Positions 23,574 through 36,266 of a DNA stretch of 45,866 nt are shown here, piece by piece (within the stretch, counting starts at the first letter, position 1; each line of letters begins with the position of its first letter). The stretch spans positions 1-45,866 of the forward strand of contig VRUB01000004.1 in NCBI GenBank assembly GCA_019456345.1, in the 5' to 3' direction. The notes below the pieces were generated by a model that saw nothing but the letters and a program-made list of their open reading frames with translations, did no database searches and was not told the DNA's origin. The position numbers and the translations under genes were made by a program. This stretch comes from Nitrospira sp. (lineage in GTDB: Bacteria; Pseudomonadota; Gammaproteobacteria; Acidiferrobacterales; SPGG2).

Positions 23574-24233
23574 TTAACCAGATGCGAACTTGTGCGCAAA
23601 ACGCGTGGTCTCCGGCAGGCGGTACTTCATCGTACACCGCAGCACCAGGTTAATCGCCGTCTTCAGGCTTACACGGTGACCGACGGATACATAAACAGGA
23701 CGCACTCCCGTACGCGTACGCAACACGGCTCCTATACGTTCTCCATGATCCGTGAGCGGAACCCAGGCGCCCTTCTCCGGCGGTAGCTCAGCATGCTCGC
23801 CGATCAGGCGCGACTTAGCGACGCCGATGCTTGGAATATCAGCAAGCAGGCCCAAGTGGCAAGCCAGCCCGAATCGGCGCGGATGCGCAAACCCCTGACC
23901 GTCGCAGAGAATCAGGTCCGGCCGCGTGCGCAGCTTCGCCAAGGCTGCCAACACCGCCGGCGCTTCTCTGAACGACAGGTATCCGGGCACATAGGGAAAC
24001 CGCGTCTTGCGCCGCACGATGGCATGCTCGTGTAACGCCAGCGTTGAAAAATCCAGAACGGCAACGGCGGCCCGCGTCACCGTGCCGTTGCGCTCGAAGC
24101 CAACATCAATCCCGGCAACATAGCGCAACGGCGGCAGCCGGTCTCGGGTGACGATCCTATTTCGCAGTGCCTCCTGGATGGCCCGCGCCTTGGCAGTCGT
24201 GGTTGGCCAGCGGTGAGATTTGCTGATTTTCAT
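23574..24233 (-). CDS. nfi: Endonuclease V (deoxyinosine 3' endonuclease)
   Basis: EndoV nicks DNA one nucleotide 3' of deoxyinosine to start repair of deaminated adenine. Taking the ATG at 24233 ([10 protein letters not shown]) gives 219 residues, the usual size; the ORF-track extension of 137 residues is antisense to the GT2 gene. Catalytic acids are visible at Asp43 (VAGIDVGF), Glu90 ([10 protein letters not shown]) and Asp111 ([18 protein letters not shown]). The wedge motif FPYVPG and GVAKSRL also match. It is divergent from the GT2 operon. Confidence 0.96.
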
Positions 24234-24413
24234 TGATCTGTTGGTTTCAATTCTCGAGCCAGAGCGCAGTGCTGGCAACCCTGCATATTCGCACCACGCC
24301 CATCGTCGAATCCGGTCGCACCCTGATCTTCCCTTTCTCCACGATCGTGCATGCGGTAATCTAAGCCGTTGATCGAAAAACATTCTACCCAGTTGTCGCC
24401 GGATTCCGTAACG

Positions 24414-25301
24414 ATGGATATTTCCGTAATCATCCCGACCCATAACCGCCTTAAGCTCCTCGAGCGCGCATTGCGATCCGTACATGTCCAGTCCCGCCGG
24501 GCGAGCGAGGTGATCGTGATAGACGACGGGTCGACCGACAGTACCCGGCAAAAGGTATCCAGCCGATTCCCACAGGTGCAGTACATCTGGCAGTCGAATC
24601 GCGGTGTCAGCGCCGCACGCAACCGCGGGTTGAGGGCGGCACACGGCGAGTGGCTGGCCTTCCTGGACTCTGACGATGAGTGGCTACCACAAAAACTGCA
24701 GGCCCAGCAACAAGCGCTGCAAGCACAACCGCGATACAAAGTCTGTCACACGGACGAGATCTGGATCCGGCACGGCACTCGCGTCAACCCTGGAAATAAG
24801 CACGCCAAGAGCGGCGGTGCGATCTTTCGCCGCTGCTTGCCCTTGTGCGTGATTTCGCCCTCGTCGGTGATCATTCACCGCTCGGTCCTCGCTGACGTTG
24901 GATTGTTTGACGAGTCTCTACCGGCCTGCGAGGACTATGACCTTTGGTTGAGGATCTGCGCCGTTTACCCCGTGCTGCTTGTCAATCAACCGCTGATCGT
25001 CAAGTACGGAGGTCATGCCGATCAGCTCTCACGCCGTTACCCCGCGATGGATCGTTTCCGTATCGCAGCGCTCGAAAAGATCATCCACTCAGGCAAGCTG
25101 TCTGTCACCGACAGGCAGGCTGCGCTACAGGTGTTGCTCGAGAAGATCGGAATCTATTTGCAGGGCGCCATCAAACGTAGCAAGCACGACGACGTCGCAC
25201 GTTACCGGCACAAACACACCCGTTACGCCCAGCTGGCCCGGGCGGCATGCGTTGACGGCGCGATCGATAATAACGCACCACTCGTGGAGGGGCGAGTATG
25301 A
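24414..25301 (+). CDS. Family 2 glycosyltransferase
   Basis: This is a 295-residue GT-A fold glycosyltransferase without membrane segments. [20 protein letters not shown] is the classic N-terminus, followed by [12 protein letters not shown] (nucleotide-binding acids), SAARNRGL and the metal-binding [20 protein letters not shown] supplies the probable catalytic acid region. I take the ATG at 24414 rather than the ORF-track start 15 codons upstream because it begins the conserved strand; neither has a clear Shine-Dalgarno. The donor and acceptor are unknown. Its stop overlaps the next gene's ATG by 4 bp (ATGA), so it starts a coupled three-gene operon with a phosphorylase-like enzyme and an aldo/keto reductase. 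Confidence 0.92.
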
Positions 25302-29036: not shown

Positions 29037-31880
29037 TCATAGCGATGGTGCCGATCTCACCAGATCGGGCTCACCGCTGCGGTCCAGGATTTCCGTGCGG
29101 GCCGCATTGCGCAATGCGATCGCCGCCGACCAGTCCTGCCCTTGAGGAAAGATCGGCGCCCCAACGATTACGTTGATCGCGCCGCGGCGCGGGAACGCTG
29201 TTTCTGCCGAAAGAATGGCACGCGTGCCGCGGATAGTGACCGGCACCACGGGGGCTCCCGCCTCGGCTGCAGCGGCAAAGGCCCCCAGACGGAACGGGAG
29301 CAGCCCAGGCATGCGTATGAACTTGCCCTCGGGGAAAAAACCGACCGGGCGGCCCTGCTGAACTGCCCGCACCAAGCGACGTGCATCGTCCGCACTGCGC
29401 TGCATATCAACACGCTCGACATACTCAGCACCGAGACGATCCAAGAATATTCGAGTAACAAAGTGCTCACCGAGCTCGCGTTTAGCGACGGAGCTGATCC
29501 GACGCGGCAAAATCGCGACCAGCACCAGTCCGTCCAGGTAGCTTGAATGGTTCGCCACCAGCACGAACGGACCGGTCTGGGGGATATTGTGCAGCCCTTC
29601 GACCGTGAGCGGTGTCGCCGTGAGCCGCCCCAGCAACCGTCCGGCTGCCCCGAAAATTGCCCAGGCCCACGACTGCCGCGGCGAAAGCGCCATTAGCAGC
29701 CAGGTAAATGGGCCGAGCAGCGCGAATATTGCCCATACGTAGACCGCGTAACAGACTTTGCCGAAACCGCGCAGCGAGCGGCGCCATTGCGGCCACAGAC
29801 CGGTCCACGCGAAACGCGCGAGCTGCCACCGAACGTCCCATTTACGCATACCGAGCTTACCGCGCTCGTACAATGCGCGGCTGGCCGCGCGGCGCAGCTT
29901 GCCGCTCGAGGTCTTGAGCACGGTATGCGGCGGTGCCAGTACGACCTCGTCCGGCGGCATACCAACAAGATCGACAACAGTATTATTGATCTGCTCGCGC
30001 AATTCTTGCCGGATTTGTGGCTGGGTCTCGCGGGTCTCTGCCAGCACCACGAGACGCTCGGTACCTGCGGTGGAATCCGTGGCAGGAAACACGGCGACAC
30101 ACCCGCGTCGTATGCCGGGGAGGCCGCTGATCGCGTCCTCCAGTTCCGGCGGGTAGATGTTGCGCCCACCACGAATGATCACATCCTTGGTGCGGCCGGT
30201 AATGTAGATCTCGCCGTCGGCCATATACGCCAGATCACCGGAGTCGAGCCAGTCTCCATCAAACAGGCGCCGCGTGGCCTCCGGATCGCGGAAATACCCG
30301 CTCGTCGCCGACGGCCCACGAAACTCAAGCCGCCCCTGTTGCCGCTCCGCTACCTCGTTTCCGGCCGCATCGACGATGCGTATCTCGTGCCCGGGTAACA
30401 CGTGCCCACAACTGGTAAAGCTCAAACCATGCGACGCGGTTTCGGCCGCAGGAATCGCGTGGCCTTCGCGCATGAACGGTTCGCGCGCAATGTGATCGAT
30501 GCGCGGCTTGCGCCCGATCGGCGGGAATGCTAGACCGACCGCGGTCTCGGCCAGACCGTAGACCGGATACATCGCCTCCTCGCGGAAGCCGTAGCGTGCG
30601 AACCGCTCGGTGAACGCGCGCATCGTCTTCAGGCTGATGGACTCGGCGCCGTTGGCGGCCATGCGCCACGATTGCAGGTCGAGACCTTCGATCTCCCGAT
30701 CATCGACCCTGCGCACGCACAACTCGTAGGCGAAGTTAGGGCCGGCTGACAATGTGCCCCGGTGGCGATGTATGGCCCAAAGCCAGCGTGCCGGTCGCGT
30801 CAGAAAGTGCAGCGGTGACATCAGCACTAACGGGAACGCATGATACAGGGTACCGAGCCAGGCAGCGATCAGGCCCATGTCGTGATACATCGGCAGCCAG
30901 CTGACAAATACATCGGTGGAGTCCACTTTCAGTACCGTGCCCATTGCCCGGATATTGACAAGCAGGTTGTGATGCGTGAGCACGACGCCCTTCGGAGCCG
31001 CCGTGCTGCCCGAGGTGTATTGCAAGAACGCTATATCGCCCGCTTTCAGGAGTGGGCGGGCGGGCAATTCCCGTTGCGCGGTCAGCTCTGCCACGGTCGT
31101 CACATGCCGTAGCGTGGCGACATGGGACTTCAGCAGCCGCGCCAACGGCCTGGCCTCGGCCACCGTAACCAAAACGCGCACCTGGGCATTGGACAATATA
31201 CCGACGTGCCGTCGCAGGTGATCTTCGATCTGCGACATCCGCACCGGTGGATAGATCGGGACCGGGATACCACCGGCAAGCAGGATGCCGAAAAATGTGA
31301 ACAGATAGTCCCGCCCCGTAGGCAACATGATGGCCGCGGTGTTGCCGAGCTCGAGCCCGCTGGCTTGTAGGCCCGCAGCCACGGCCTGCGCGCCGTCGAA
31401 CAACGCCTGATAGGTGATCTCCTCGTCCTGACCGTCGCCGCTCAGCAGATAGACATGCGGCCGATTGGGATGGGCCGTTACATGCCACTCGAGCACATCG
31501 ACCAATGTCTGCGCCTGCGCAGGCGCCGCCGCGGCGTCCCCTAGCGTGACCGGGGCCGGCGCTACCGACGTGCTCCGCGCTTGCGCTGCTGCAGTGCCAG
31601 CCACCGCCCGCAGCAGGTCACGCGGGGTCTCCGCGCTCGCGAACACCTGCGCCGACAGGCTGACCCCAAAAGCGCGCTCGATGCGGGCCAGCAGCTCGAC
31701 CCGGCTCAGACTGTCGAAACCCAGCTCGCGCTCTAAAGCGCTGTCCAGCCGCACGCGGACGGCAAGCGGATCGTGCGGATGCAACTCGCGGTCCATGTCC
31801 GTGATGATTTGCAGCAGCTTGTCCGCTTTATCATCGGCAACGGTCACTGCGCGTGCGCTGTCTTGCCCGTCGATGGCCAT
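29037..31880 (-). CDS. Fused acyl carrier - acyl-AMP ligase - PlsC acyltransferase
   Basis: One 947-residue polypeptide holds three lipid-handling domains. Residues about 15-90 are an acyl carrier domain with phosphopantetheine Ser57 in GFDSLSRVEL. Residues about 120-660 are an acyl-adenylating enzyme: P-loop FLQYTSGSTAAPKGVVL, SWLPMYHDMGL, YPVYGLAETAVGL, WLDSGDLAY, and TKDVIIRGGRNIYP, with the C-terminal Lys in KTSSGKLRR. The PIYPPVR and LPMYHDMGL blocks resemble fatty-acyl-AMP ligases. Two hydrophobic helices follow (about 700-735). Residues about 760-930 are a PlsC-type acyltransferase, with NHSSYLD (777) and FPEGKFIR (849). A plausible cycle is activate a fatty acid, load it on the carrier, transfer it to a lipid at the membrane. 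The carrier domain is N-terminal. The acceptor is unknown. Confidence 0.93.
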   Translation of the reverse strand: MAIDGQDSARAVTVADDKADKLLQIITDMDRELHPHDPLAVRVRLDSALERELGFDSLSRVELLARIERAFGVSLSAQVFASAETPRDLLRAVAGTAAAQARSTSVAPAPVTLGDAAAAPAQAQTLVDVLEWHVTAHPNRPHVYLLSGDGQDEEITYQALFDGAQAVAAGLQASGLELGNTAAIMLPTGRDYLFTFFGILLAGGIPVPIYPPVRMSQIEDHLRRHVGILSNAQVRVLVTVAEARPLARLLKSHVATLRHVTTVAELTAQRELPARPLLKAGDIAFLQYTSGSTAAPKGVVLTHHNLLVNIRAMGTVLKVDSTDVFVSWLPMYHDMGLIAAWLGTLYHAFPLVLMSPLHFLTRPARWLWAIHRHRGTLSAGPNFAYELCVRRVDDREIEGLDLQSWRMAANGAESISLKTMRAFTERFARYGFREEAMYPVYGLAETAVGLAFPPIGRKPRIDHIAREPFMREGHAIPAAETASHGLSFTSCGHVLPGHEIRIVDAAGNEVAERQQGRLEFRGPSATSGYFRDPEATRRLFDGDWLDSGDLAYMADGEIYITGRTKDVIIRGGRNIYPPELEDAISGLPGIRRGCVAVFPATDSTAGTERLVVLAETRETQPQIRQELREQINNTVVDLVGMPPDEVVLAPPHTVLKTSSGKLRRAASRALYERGKLGMRKWDVRWQLARFAWTGLWPQWRRSLRGFGKVCYAVYVWAIFALLGPFTWLLMALSPRQSWAWAIFGAAGRLLGRLTATPLTVEGLHNIPQTGPFVLVANHSSYLDGLVLVAILPRRISSVAKRELGEHFVTRIFLDRLGAEYVERVDMQRSADDARRLVRAVQQGRPVGFFPEGKFIRMPGLLPFRLGAFAAAAEAGAPVVPVTIRGTRAILSAETAFPRRGAINVIVGAPIFPQGQDWSAAIALRNAARTEILDRSGEPDLVRSAPSL

Positions 31881-33082: not shown

Positions 33083-33649
33083 TTATGGCCTATGCCGGCT
33101 TTCGCCCGCCTCGATGCCGCCGGCAATCAGATGAGCGACGCGTAATGGCTCGGGAATAGTGCTATGGATCGCAAAGCGCCCGAGCAGGGTGTCGACCTGT
33201 GTCAAGGTCAGCCCCGCGCGCTGGACGTAGATCCCGCCGACACGCTCCATCGGCCCGGCACGCTCGATCAGCGCCCACTTGCGCTCGCCGCCCGGTACTC
33301 TATGCAGCAGTGCGCGTTTGATTGCATTCAAGTCCGGGTGCTTGCGCGCAACCACCACTGCCGGAATACGTAAGCTCTCGTGCAACCGATGCAAATCGAT
33401 CACGTTGAAACCGGCAAAGGCGATGCCCTGCAGCATGATGACCTGGATATGCCCCTTGAAGCGCGATTGCGACAACAGTCGAACCAGTGTGGAGGTACTG
33501 TTAGCGCCGTCGCGGCGAACTTTTGCAGACAGCACTCCCTCCAGGCGCAAGCCTGAGTAAAGCGCTCCGACAATCAACACATCGCCCCGGTGTGTGCGCG
33601 CGAACGGCGCATCGTCAAAACCGATAACATGTGACAGGCGACGAGCCAC
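33083..33649 (-). CDS. DUF99/UPF0215 protein, endonuclease V-like fold
   Basis: This 188-residue protein opens with RLSHVIGFDDAPF, the paired-acid signature of DUF99, and continues with GDVLIVGALYSG, the VIMLQGIAFAGFNVIDL strand-loop and IPAVVVARKHPDLNAIKRAL. DUF99 has an RNase H-like fold related to endonuclease V and is mainly archaeal; at least one archaeal member has been described as acting on damaged (uracil-containing) DNA, which I state from memory. Bacterial copies are uncommon. It is unlinked here to other repair genes on the same transcript. The Rid-family gene lies 95 bp upstream on the same strand. Confidence 0.85.
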   Translation of the reverse strand: MARRLSHVIGFDDAPFARTHRGDVLIVGALYSGLRLEGVLSAKVRRDGANSTSTLVRLLSQSRFKGHIQVIMLQGIAFAGFNVIDLHRLHESLRIPAVVVARKHPDLNAIKRALLHRVPGGERKWALIERAGPMERVGGIYVQRAGLTLTQVDTLLGRFAIHSTIPEPLRVAHLIAGGIEAGESRHRP

Positions 33650-33744: not shown

Positions 33745-34137
33745 CTAACTGTTATCGACAAACGCATCGGCCTCGATCTCCACCAACATATCCGGGTCGA
33801 TCAACCGGCTCACCTCCACCATACTGGTCGCGGGCCGGATTTCATGAAAAAACTCTCCGTGTGCCCGGCCGATCTTCTCCCATTCGCCGATGTTGACTAC
33901 ATACATGCGCGTTCGCACGACATCTTCAATCGTCGCACCGGCTTTCACCAATGCCGACTCGATATTCTTGAGCGTCTGTATGGTCTGGGCATAGGGATCG
34001 CCGGTCCCGACGATATTACCGTTCTTGTCCGTCGCGGTGGTACCGGACACATGCACGTAGGGACCGATCGCGACCGCCCGTGAGTAGCCGACGATATTCT
34101 CCCACGGAGTGTTGCTAGCGATGTTTTCACGCTTCAT
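33745..34137 (-). CDS. Rid (YjgF/UK114) family protein lacking the RidA arginine
   Basis: Rid proteins are small trimers; RidA itself hydrolyses reactive enamines/imines such as 2-aminoacrylate. This 130-residue protein shows [46 protein letters not shown] and the closing MVEVSRL....[10 protein letters not shown]. Where RidA has PAR(S) with the catalytic Arg105, this protein has RPATSMVEV, with Thr instead. Rid subgroups that lack this Arg are not known to have the RidA deaminase activity. It lies 51 bp after dpaL on the same strand, where an aminoacrylate-handling role would make sense, so its biochemistry is open. Confidence 0.92.
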
Positions 34138-34188
34138 GATGCGTACCTCACAGTTGGAAGATGACCACGTGTAATGGTTTGCGTGTGT

Positions 34189-35418
34189 TCAGCGTGACAT
34201 AATCTTGCGGTACATGTCTGGATCCGTCGCCCCTTCCGTCGAGAACAACAGGACCTTCGACTGCGCGTTCAGCTGAATCTTTTCCCGTAACCCGCGCAGC
34301 GCGGCGTCATGGCACAAACAGGCAACCACACCCGTCGTAACCGCCCCGGATTCTCCGGATACCACCGCCGCGTCCCCCGGAAGCGGTCTGCCCAGCAACT
34401 GCATCCCTTTTGCCGCCACCCCATCGGAGCACGCGAAGAAACCATCACTGTAATCGCGCAAAATCCGCCAGGCGAGCGTGCTGGGTTCGCCCGCCGCCAA
34501 CCCGGCCATAATCGTCTCCAGCGCACCCGTCACCGTCTTTGGCGCGCCGTCGCCGGTCTTAGCGGATTGATAAAAGCAGGCCGCATTTTTCGGTTCGACC
34601 ACAGCGAAGAATGGACCTGAATCGCCATACTGCTCCCGCAGATACGCTCGCAGGGCCGCGCCGAGCGAACCGACGCCGGCCTGGATAAGCACGTGCGTGG
34701 GGCGCTCTGGCCCGAGTTGCTCGATCGCTTCCGCGAACAACGTCAGATATCCCTGCATCACCCACAGCGGAACTTGCTCGTAACCCTCCCACGCCGTGTC
34801 CTGCAGCAACACCCAACCGTGTTGGGCCGCCGTCTCCGCTGCCAACCGTACGCTCTCATCAAAGTTGCCGTCGGTCACGCGCGCCTCGGCCCCGAGCTTG
34901 CGAATGTGTGCTACCCGTGCGGCAGACACGTTTCGGGGCAAAAAAACAACCGCTTTTTGTCCCAATTGCCGTGCCGCCCAGGCCACGGCGCGACCATGAT
35001 TTCCGTCGCTCGCGGTGACGAAGACACGCCCGCCGAGACGGGCGCGGGTCTGCGGCAATCTAAGAAAATCGAAGGAAATCTGCTCCAATTCCAACCCGAG
35101 CTGCTGCCCCACAAACCGGCCGACGGCGTGGGACGCACCGAGCACCTTGAAGGCATCGAGGCCGAAACGCCGGGACTCGTCCTTCACCCATAAACGCGTG
35201 ATCCCTAACGAATCCGCAAGCCGCTGCAACGCCACCAGCGGCGTCGGATAATAGTCCTTGAAGCCGCGGTGGAAAGATCGTACCGATTGAGCCGCAGCAA
35301 CGGAAAACGCACCCGTGTCACACCGGGCTGAACCAGCGCGCCGCTGGTAGCGAGTCGCTACGTACTCGACCTCAATATCGTATTCCACGACTGTGTGTCC
35401 GAATCCGGCACGGTCCAT
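34189..35418 (-). CDS. dpaL: Diaminopropionate ammonia-lyase
   Basis: DpaL (YgeX) is a PLP enzyme that converts 2,3-diaminopropionate to pyruvate and two ammonia through an aminoacrylate intermediate. The 409-residue protein follows E. coli YgeX closely: FHRGFKDYYPTPLVAL, WVKDESRRFGLDAFKVLGA with PLP-Lys91, TASDGNHGRAVAWAA, VLLQDTAWEGYEQVPLWVMQGY, THVLIQAGVGSLGAALRAYL and the phosphate-binding SGESGAVTTGVVA. Its nearest downstream gene encodes a Rid-family protein. The first 45 residues are variable and a later start is possible. The upstream neighbour on the same strand is the YgiD-like dioxygenase, 65 bp away. Confidence 0.93.
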   Translation of the reverse strand: MDRAGFGHTVVEYDIEVEYVATRYQRRAGSARCDTGAFSVAAAQSVRSFHRGFKDYYPTPLVALQRLADSLGITRLWVKDESRRFGLDAFKVLGASHAVGRFVGQQLGLELEQISFDFLRLPQTRARLGGRVFVTASDGNHGRAVAWAARQLGQKAVVFLPRNVSAARVAHIRKLGAEARVTDGNFDESVRLAAETAAQHGWVLLQDTAWEGYEQVPLWVMQGYLTLFAEAIEQLGPERPTHVLIQAGVGSLGAALRAYLREQYGDSGPFFAVVEPKNAACFYQSAKTGDGAPKTVTGALETIMAGLAAGEPSTLAWRILRDYSDGFFACSDGVAAKGMQLLGRPLPGDAAVVSGESGAVTTGVVACLCHDAALRGLREKIQLNAQSKVLLFSTEGATDPDMYRKIMSR

Positions 35419-35483
35419 GGGCGCCGCCCTGCGTCACCGGCATGGCACTACGTGAACATGCGTACCCCTGAATTCCGCGCCAC

Positions 35484-36266
35484 TCAATCCCAGGCATAAG
35501 CGGCCATGGACAACACGCCGTAGGTAAAAGCCCCGTGCAACTGGCGGCCGTGCACCCCCGGGGTGGCCGCGCCCAGGGGAACGAACAACGGTAGGAAATG
35601 CTCTGTGGTCGGGTGATTGCGACGCGCACTCGGCCCTTCATGCTCGTAGCTGAGCAACATCTGCTCACGGCCATTCGTGATGGTTTCCTCGAGCCACGTA
35701 TCGAAAGCTACCACGTAGTCCGGCGGCGCGGCATCGATGGCCTGGGCGCGAAACTCCGCCAGGTTATGCGTCGCGCCACCGCTGCCCATAATCAGCACAC
35801 CCTCTGCACGCAGCGTACGCAACGCCTTGCCGATTTCCAGATGGTGTCGTGCGTCGCGCTGCGGCTGAATGGAAAGCTGTACGACCGGTACATCCGCCGC
35901 CGGGTAGGCAAGCATCAGCGGCACCCAGGCACCATGGTCCAGGCCGCGCGACTCATCGATGCCCACTGTGAACTCTGCTTCGCGCAGCAACGTGGCAATC
36001 TTCTCGGCAAGTGCAGGATCACCGGGTGCCGGGTAGTGCATCCGGTACAACGCTTCGGGAAAACCGTAGAAGTCATGGATCGTGGCGGGCCGCGTGGCGC
36101 CCGTGACTCGCGGGCTGGTTGTCTCCCAGTGCGCAGAGATGCACACGATCGCGCGCGGAGGTGGCAGCATCGGACCGAGCCCTGCAAGGAAATCCGGTGT
36201 CGGCCCCTTGTCGAGCAACAGCGTCGGCGCCCCATGCGAAACAAAAATACCAGGCAAAACATCCAT
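35484..36266 (-). CDS. ygiD: YgiD-type extradiol dioxygenase (LigB superfamily)
   Basis: This 260-residue protein matches the YgiD/4,5-DOPA extradiol dioxygenase family, metal enzymes that cleave catechol rings. PGIFVSHGAPTLLLDKGPT supplies the first His, VCISAHWETTSPRV the second, SRGLDHGAWVPLML another conserved acid/His pair, and MGSGGATHNL the C-terminal His. The terminal HGAFTYGVLSM block is conserved. The natural substrate in bacteria is not established. The ATG is 28 bp downstream of the stop of the broken CsaA-like gene on the same strand. Confidence 0.93.
   Translation of the reverse strand: MDVLPGIFVSHGAPTLLLDKGPTPDFLAGLGPMLPPPRAIVCISAHWETTSPRVTGATRPATIHDFYGFPEALYRMHYPAPGDPALAEKIATLLREAEFTVGIDESRGLDHGAWVPLMLAYPAADVPVVQLSIQPQRDARHHLEIGKALRTLRAEGVLIMGSGGATHNLAEFRAQAIDAAPPDYVVAFDTWLEETITNGREQMLLSYEHEGPSARRNHPTTEHFLPLFVPLGAATPGVHGRQLHGAFTYGVLSMAAYAWD

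Follow-up and report, generated by a model that had tools for sequence, protein, structure and literature searches.

An ACP–FAAL–PlsC fusion family as a candidate CoA-independent, fatty-acid-recycling phospholipid acyltransferase

The window examined here, a 45,866-nucleotide stretch of a Nitrospira sp. genome (contig VRUB01000004.1), carries at 29037–31880 on the minus strand an open reading frame, stop codon included, that starts with ATG and encodes a single intact protein of 947 amino acids. Three Pfam domains score above their gathering thresholds and follow one another from the N- to the C-terminus: a carrier (PP-binding, PF00550; residues 44–93, 2.4e-10), an AMP-forming ligase (AMP-binding; residues 130–530, 1.4e-66) and an acyltransferase (Acyltransferase/PlsC, PF01553; residues 758–883, 3e-29). 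Together with full-length orthologues, these matches mark the gene as an ACP–FAAL–PlsC fusion. The carrier domain spans residues about 20–95 (31596–31823, on the minus strand like every feature of the gene given below), where weak matches to ACP families accompany the Pfam match. Ser57 (31710–31712), the D-S-L serine of PF00550 within the motif GFDSL, is invariant among 34 orthologues and is the predicted 4'-phosphopantetheine attachment site. Translation of the reading frame and the Pfam search bear out the coordinates, strand, domain order and Ser57 of the original prediction, including the position of the carrier N-terminal to the ligase. Structure prediction, which had been proposed as a check, gave a confident AlphaFold2 model (pLDDT 85, pTM 0.71). 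A PF01648 search found no phosphopantetheinyl transferase in the Nitrospira sp. genome, while it found one in 10 of 14 control genomes; as the assembly is only 84.6% complete, the gene is probably just missing from the data.

The ligase domain (residues 122–676, 29853–31517), with its P-loop YTSGST at residues 288–293 and the A10 lysine Lys661, was assigned to the fatty acyl-AMP ligases (FAALs) by NCBIfam, PDB, alignment, tree and fold. FAALs rank first in both the NCBIfam and the PDB searches (3pbk, 1e-90), and the AlphaFold2 model superimposes on 3pbk, the E. coli FAAL, with a TM-score of 0.91 of the target. The FAAL hallmarks described in PMC8460268, in E. coli FAAL numbering, are three bulky side chains within the former CoA pocket (W224, M231 and F279), a FAAL-specific helix (T252–R258) and the gate prolines P107 and P226. 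All of these have counterparts in the fusion. W328, M335 and F383 align with the pocket plugs and P212 and P330 with the gate prolines, and all five are invariant in the family. The helix aligns with residues 356–362 (30795–30815), in a region that retains a conserved FL.RP motif. The FAAL-specific insertion, which the original prediction had proposed looking for, lies at residues about 456–488 (30417–30515) in an alignment of fusions, FAALs and other ligases. The segment from A5 to the next strand, which holds this insertion, measures 61–64 residues in the fusions and 59–68 in FAALs; it is shorter in E. coli FadD, in Aas-type ligases and in the other ligases of the Nitrospira sp. genome, with 36–37 residues in FadD and most CoA- and Aas-type ligases compared, and 47–48 in three. 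In the ligase tree the fusions group with the FAALs (100/100) and form a single clade of their own (100/99). Insertion, helix, pocket residues and tree speak against an acyl-CoA ligase, which was rejected, and agree with the fold in making the ligase FAAL-like rather than ACSL-like, the case that the original prediction had named as favouring ACP-directed loading. On these features, ACP-directed loading is expected: the ligase would reject CoA and load a carrier.

The acyltransferase core occupies residues about 741–905 (29166–29660). A PDB profile search with the C-terminal 271 residues returned one entry, Thermotoga maritima PlsC (TmPlsC, 5KYM; 2.8e-32), in an alignment that begins at its residue 4 and includes its two-helix region. 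The same structure is the top fold match (1e-13) of the AlphaFold2 model of this domain (pLDDT 91). Two long helices of the model, at residues 683–731 and 736–753 (29622–29834), correspond to the two-helix membrane motif of TmPlsC in the profile alignment to 5KYM. The HX4D catalytic motif, from His778 to Asp783 within NHSSYLD (29532–29549), has N777, H778 and D783 invariant, and so are E851 and G852 of motif III. These invariant catalytic residues rule out a decayed domain; an inactive acyltransferase was one of the two weak points named by the original prediction, and the catalytic residues are instead kept in orthologues. Among family models, the general domain model TIGR00530 tops the matches, although below its cut-off, followed among curated models by acyl-[ACP]--phospholipid O-acyltransferase and Aas, which come ahead of PlsC. 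OlsA models match weakly.

Clues to the acceptor come from motif III. In TmPlsC, R159 of this motif and K105 are proposed to hold the phosphate of lysophosphatidate (LPA), according to PMC6688108, which cites Robertson 2017 for the proposal; in mammalian LPAAT alpha, activity drops strongly when the motif III Arg is exchanged for Ala or Lys (PMC6688108). The fusion keeps Lys800 (29481–29483), which aligns with K105 and is invariant in orthologues. Its motif III reads FPEGKF (29319–29336; family consensus FPEGT[F/L]), with Phe854 in place of R159. All 55 family members examined lack the Arg of the EGTR motif typical of lysophosphatidate acyltransferases and have Phe (40) or Leu (15) instead. 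The same position is Ile in 25/25 reading frames longer than 600 amino acids with an Aas-type PlsC domain, E. coli Aas included, and Arg in E. coli PlsC and in the three other PlsC-type proteins of the Nitrospira sp. genome. The loss of this Arg, common to the fusion and Aas, is suggestive of a lysolipid acceptor with a capped phosphate, such as lyso-PE or lyso-PG. Motif III alone does not name the acceptor, however, because a further stand-alone PlsC-type group has Ser at this position.

Far from being a one-off, the fusion represents a conserved and widespread family. A whole-protein search recovered proteins with these three domains from 25 of 59 near relatives, a count in which some members are cut by contig ends and from which two further matches, being FAALs only, were left out. 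Among good-quality genomes sampled across the class, 43 of 272 (about 16%) encode the fusion, and in a wider sample of the phylum 4 of 292 do. The named orthologues come from many Pseudomonas, Burkholderiales, Rhodocyclaceae and Rhodospirillaceae, some of them beta- and alphaproteobacteria, and from one acidobacterium; the fusion also resides on plasmids or chromids of Methylobacterium, Sinorhizobium, Cupriavidus, Paraburkholderia and Photobacterium. Such a patchy distribution points to an accessory function. In dozens of other species the frame stays open over its full length (43–69% identity), the nearest orthologues (64–69%) being those of a gammaproteobacterial genome and a 'Candidatus Muproteobacteria' genome, an affinity that probably places the source of the window in this group. 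The fusion is therefore no sequencing or assembly artefact, a possibility excluded by the same open architecture in many independent genomes. Every full-length orthologue found has all three domains in one order. In 34 dereplicated orthologues Ser57, the P-loop residues of the ligase, Lys661, His778, Asp783, Glu851 and Gly852 are invariant, and the linkers (residues about 96–121 and 677–740) are less conserved than the domains. At an acidobacterial locus (L102:5669–7632) a separate ACP gene overlaps a FAAL gene, the two ordered as in the fusion; no PlsC match was found near this gene pair, which possibly resembles an unfused precursor.

No shared pathway emerges from the neighbourhoods of the fusion across the loci compared. 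In the window, yjbQ follows the fusion gene about 30 bp downstream in the same orientation, and gpmA lies divergently upstream. This arrangement is taken as plain synteny, since adjacency to yjbQ is kept only in close relatives, and an operon with the co-directional yjbQ was set aside on the same grounds. In 27 of 31 Pseudomonas loci the adjacent, divergent gene encodes an ATG22-like MFS transporter (e.g. L046:4499–5890, minus strand) and the outer genes differ. This transporter was rejected as an LplT-like partner, being related to LplT at superfamily level only, and no homologue was seen beside the fusion at the loci compared outside Pseudomonas. On the plasmids of Cupriavidus and Paraburkholderia, the gene directly upstream of the fusion encodes a further AMP-binding protein (L119:6248–8023 and L120:6170–7828; the two share 48% identity). 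Genes related to stress and energy surround it, for FtsH, a universal stress protein, pyruvate dehydrogenase, a separate ACP and cytochrome oxidase. On Methylobacterium nodulans pMNOD02 (L118:11225–12724) a metallophosphoesterase gene and a CDP-archaeol-synthase-like gene adjoin the fusion; the latter was dismissed as a conserved neighbour, as it was seen at no other locus compared. Elsewhere in the window, the gene at 33083–33649 (minus strand) matches Endonuclease dU (PF01949, 2.5e-57), with a haloarchaeal model among its NCBIfam matches, in a genome that looks proteobacterial; a gene for Endonuclease V is located some 8 kb from it (23574–24644). Genes for a RidA-like protein, a diaminopropionate ammonia-lyase and a LigB-type dioxygenase follow one another on one strand (33745–36266, minus strand) and possibly form an amine-handling cluster.

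The protein reads best as a fatty-acid-recycling phospholipid acyltransferase that is independent of CoA and has its own carrier, an explanation that we consider somewhat better than an even bet from sequence features. A phosphopantetheinyl transferase would first convert Ser57 to its holo form. As a member of its family, the FAAL domain would then adenylate a free fatty acid at the expense of ATP, and the acyl group would pass to the carrier at the N-terminus, onto its phosphopantetheine arm, with CoA rejected through the FAAL-specific features; that the chain loads its own carrier in cis is suggested by the fusion itself. Finally, the PlsC domain, placed on the inner leaflet by its two-helix motif, would transfer the carrier-bound acyl group to the free hydroxyl of a lysolipid. 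Given the Arg loss shared with Aas, this acceptor would most likely be a lysophospholipid that bears a head group, lyso-PE or lyso-PG, and not lysophosphatidate. On balance, free fatty acids would be used to repair or remodel membrane phospholipid, a task like that of Aas carried out by a different lineage. In favour of this explanation are the presence of three domains in one chain and the conservation of all catalytic residues across 34–55 orthologues. Against it count the retention of Lys800, the second proposed contact to the LPA phosphate, and the Ser in another PlsC-type group; no conserved neighbour at the loci compared points to a partner in lysophospholipid repair. A bolder version is tentative and in our estimate falls short of even chances: a self-contained assembly line for membrane lipid, in which carrier and FAAL, as a polyketide-style loading module, feed a glycerolipid acyltransferase built into the same chain. 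A single, selected class of free fatty acids would then be channelled in cis to a membrane lipid, insulated from CoA and the general AcpP pool.

Lysophosphatidate acyltransferases also deserve consideration, since the closest solved structure is one, the 1-acylglycerol-3-phosphate acyltransferase domain model TIGR00530 leads the matches (though below its cut-off) and Lys800 is kept. The fusion would then salvage free fatty acids for new phospholipid, passing the carrier-bound acyl group to the sn-2 position of LPA to give phosphatidate, as PlsC does. The Arg proposed to hold the LPA phosphate is, however, missing from every member compared, its substitution in LPAAT alpha is strongly inhibitory, and the same genome encodes other PlsC-type proteins with FPEGTR, so we regard this role as unlikely. 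No more probable, in our judgement, is a tailoring enzyme for special lipids (for example by O-acylation of an aminolipid, or by acylation of a glycolipid or a secondary metabolite) that would supply them with one specific free fatty acid. Specialised pathways are the main destination of FAALs as PMC8460268 describes them, and the scattered distribution across the class, the weak OlsA matches and the variation of neighbouring genes between lineages would all fit. Such an enzyme should be surrounded by a dedicated biosynthetic cluster, yet no OlsB-, NRPS- or PKS-like companion gene was seen among the neighbours, which were clustered among themselves and partly annotated.

It may also be asked whether the domains work together at all. 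The linkers are less conserved than the domains they join, the acidobacterial ACP–FAAL pair stands alone, and E. coli Aas is served by a diffusible ACP (PMC11416262). The FAAL domain might accordingly serve other acyltransferases by charging the carrier or free AcpP, while the PlsC domain uses general acyl-AcpP or acyl-CoA. Against such a division, every full-length orthologue found retains the three domains in a single order and the carrier Ser is invariant, which suggests that the carrier is used by its own enzyme; we rate the division as the least probable of these alternatives.

If the favoured reading, recycling of fatty acids into phospholipid through a private carrier, is true, many proteobacteria, Pseudomonas included, would have a second, separately evolved counterpart of the LplT–Aas task, in which free fatty acids and lysolipids become membrane lipid by way of that carrier instead of AcpP. 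This would bear on how bacteria withstand phospholipases, those released through type VI secretion among them; P. aeruginosa Aas has been implicated in such defence (PMC12663445). It would also bear on how exogenous fatty acids are used by bacteria under a block of fatty acid synthesis. Further, FAALs, mainly known from natural-product pathways, would enter ordinary membrane metabolism. In records from the Methylobacterium, Cupriavidus and Paraburkholderia loci the family is annotated merely as 'AMP-binding protein', so that a name and an assay would correct many annotations.

Fusions of this kind are not new. A single sentence in an eLife paper of 2021 (PMC8460268) mentions lysophospholipid acyltransferases fused to some FAAL-like domains of bacteria, and these fusions are probably the same family, as judged from that one-sentence description rather than from sequences, carrier or taxa. 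A literature search found no characterised member of the ACP–FAAL–PlsC family. What is added here is the placement of the family among the FAALs, its distribution, the clues that motif III gives to the acceptor, and the separation from Aas. Other chains that join a FAAL to a carrier are the didomain proteins HapA, NocH and AmbG (PMC11837247); unlike the fusion, they serve natural-product (polyketide or peptide) pathways, and none is described there with a PlsC domain. TmPlsC, the closest solved structure to the C-terminal domain, N-terminal two-helix region included, differs in being a stand-alone protein and in having the motif III Arg159 that the fusion lacks.

The nearest functional parallel is Aas, the 2-acyl-GPE acyltransferase/acyl-ACP synthetase of E. 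coli (NF005959, PRK08043), which activates a free fatty acid, loads a carrier and acylates a lysolipid (PMC11416262). Both proteins combine a PlsC-type acyltransferase and a carrier-loading AMP-forming ligase in one chain, and in both motif III is without the LPA-phosphate Arg (FPEGRI in Aas, FPEGT[F/L] in the fusion). The original description of an Aas-like logic with a carrier of its own was thus apt, and the shared loss of this Arg lends it added support. However, PlsC comes first in Aas and last in the fusion, a carrier is built into the fusion and absent from Aas, and the Aas ligase falls outside the FAAL clade and has neither the insertion nor the helix. The PlsC domains of the two also form separate groups, in a tree whose deep branches are weak and in which the distant rows L150 and L152 are poorly placed. 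The fusion does not have the Aas architecture of an N-terminal PlsC followed by an Aas-type ligase and scores far below the Aas-type cut-offs. With domain order, ligase clade, PlsC group and carrier all different, it is no member of the Aas family. Nor does it replace Aas, for which mutual exclusion would be expected: in 275 genomes, with presence lists sorted by hand, 13 have both against 12.7 expected (Fisher p = 1), and the fusion and Aas-like proteins occur independently. Indeed, the Nitrospira sp. genome itself also encodes an Aas-type ligase (C100:8467–9993) and three other PlsC-type genes. The single-chain LplT–Aas fusions (PRK08633, NF006386; PRK06814) are likewise multidomain acyl-[ACP]--phospholipid acyltransferases, and their motif III, FPEG[T/A]ISR, resembles the FPEGT[F/L][T/S]R of the ACP–FAAL–PlsC family; they differ in having an LplT-like transporter in place of the carrier and an Aas-type ligase in place of the FAAL.
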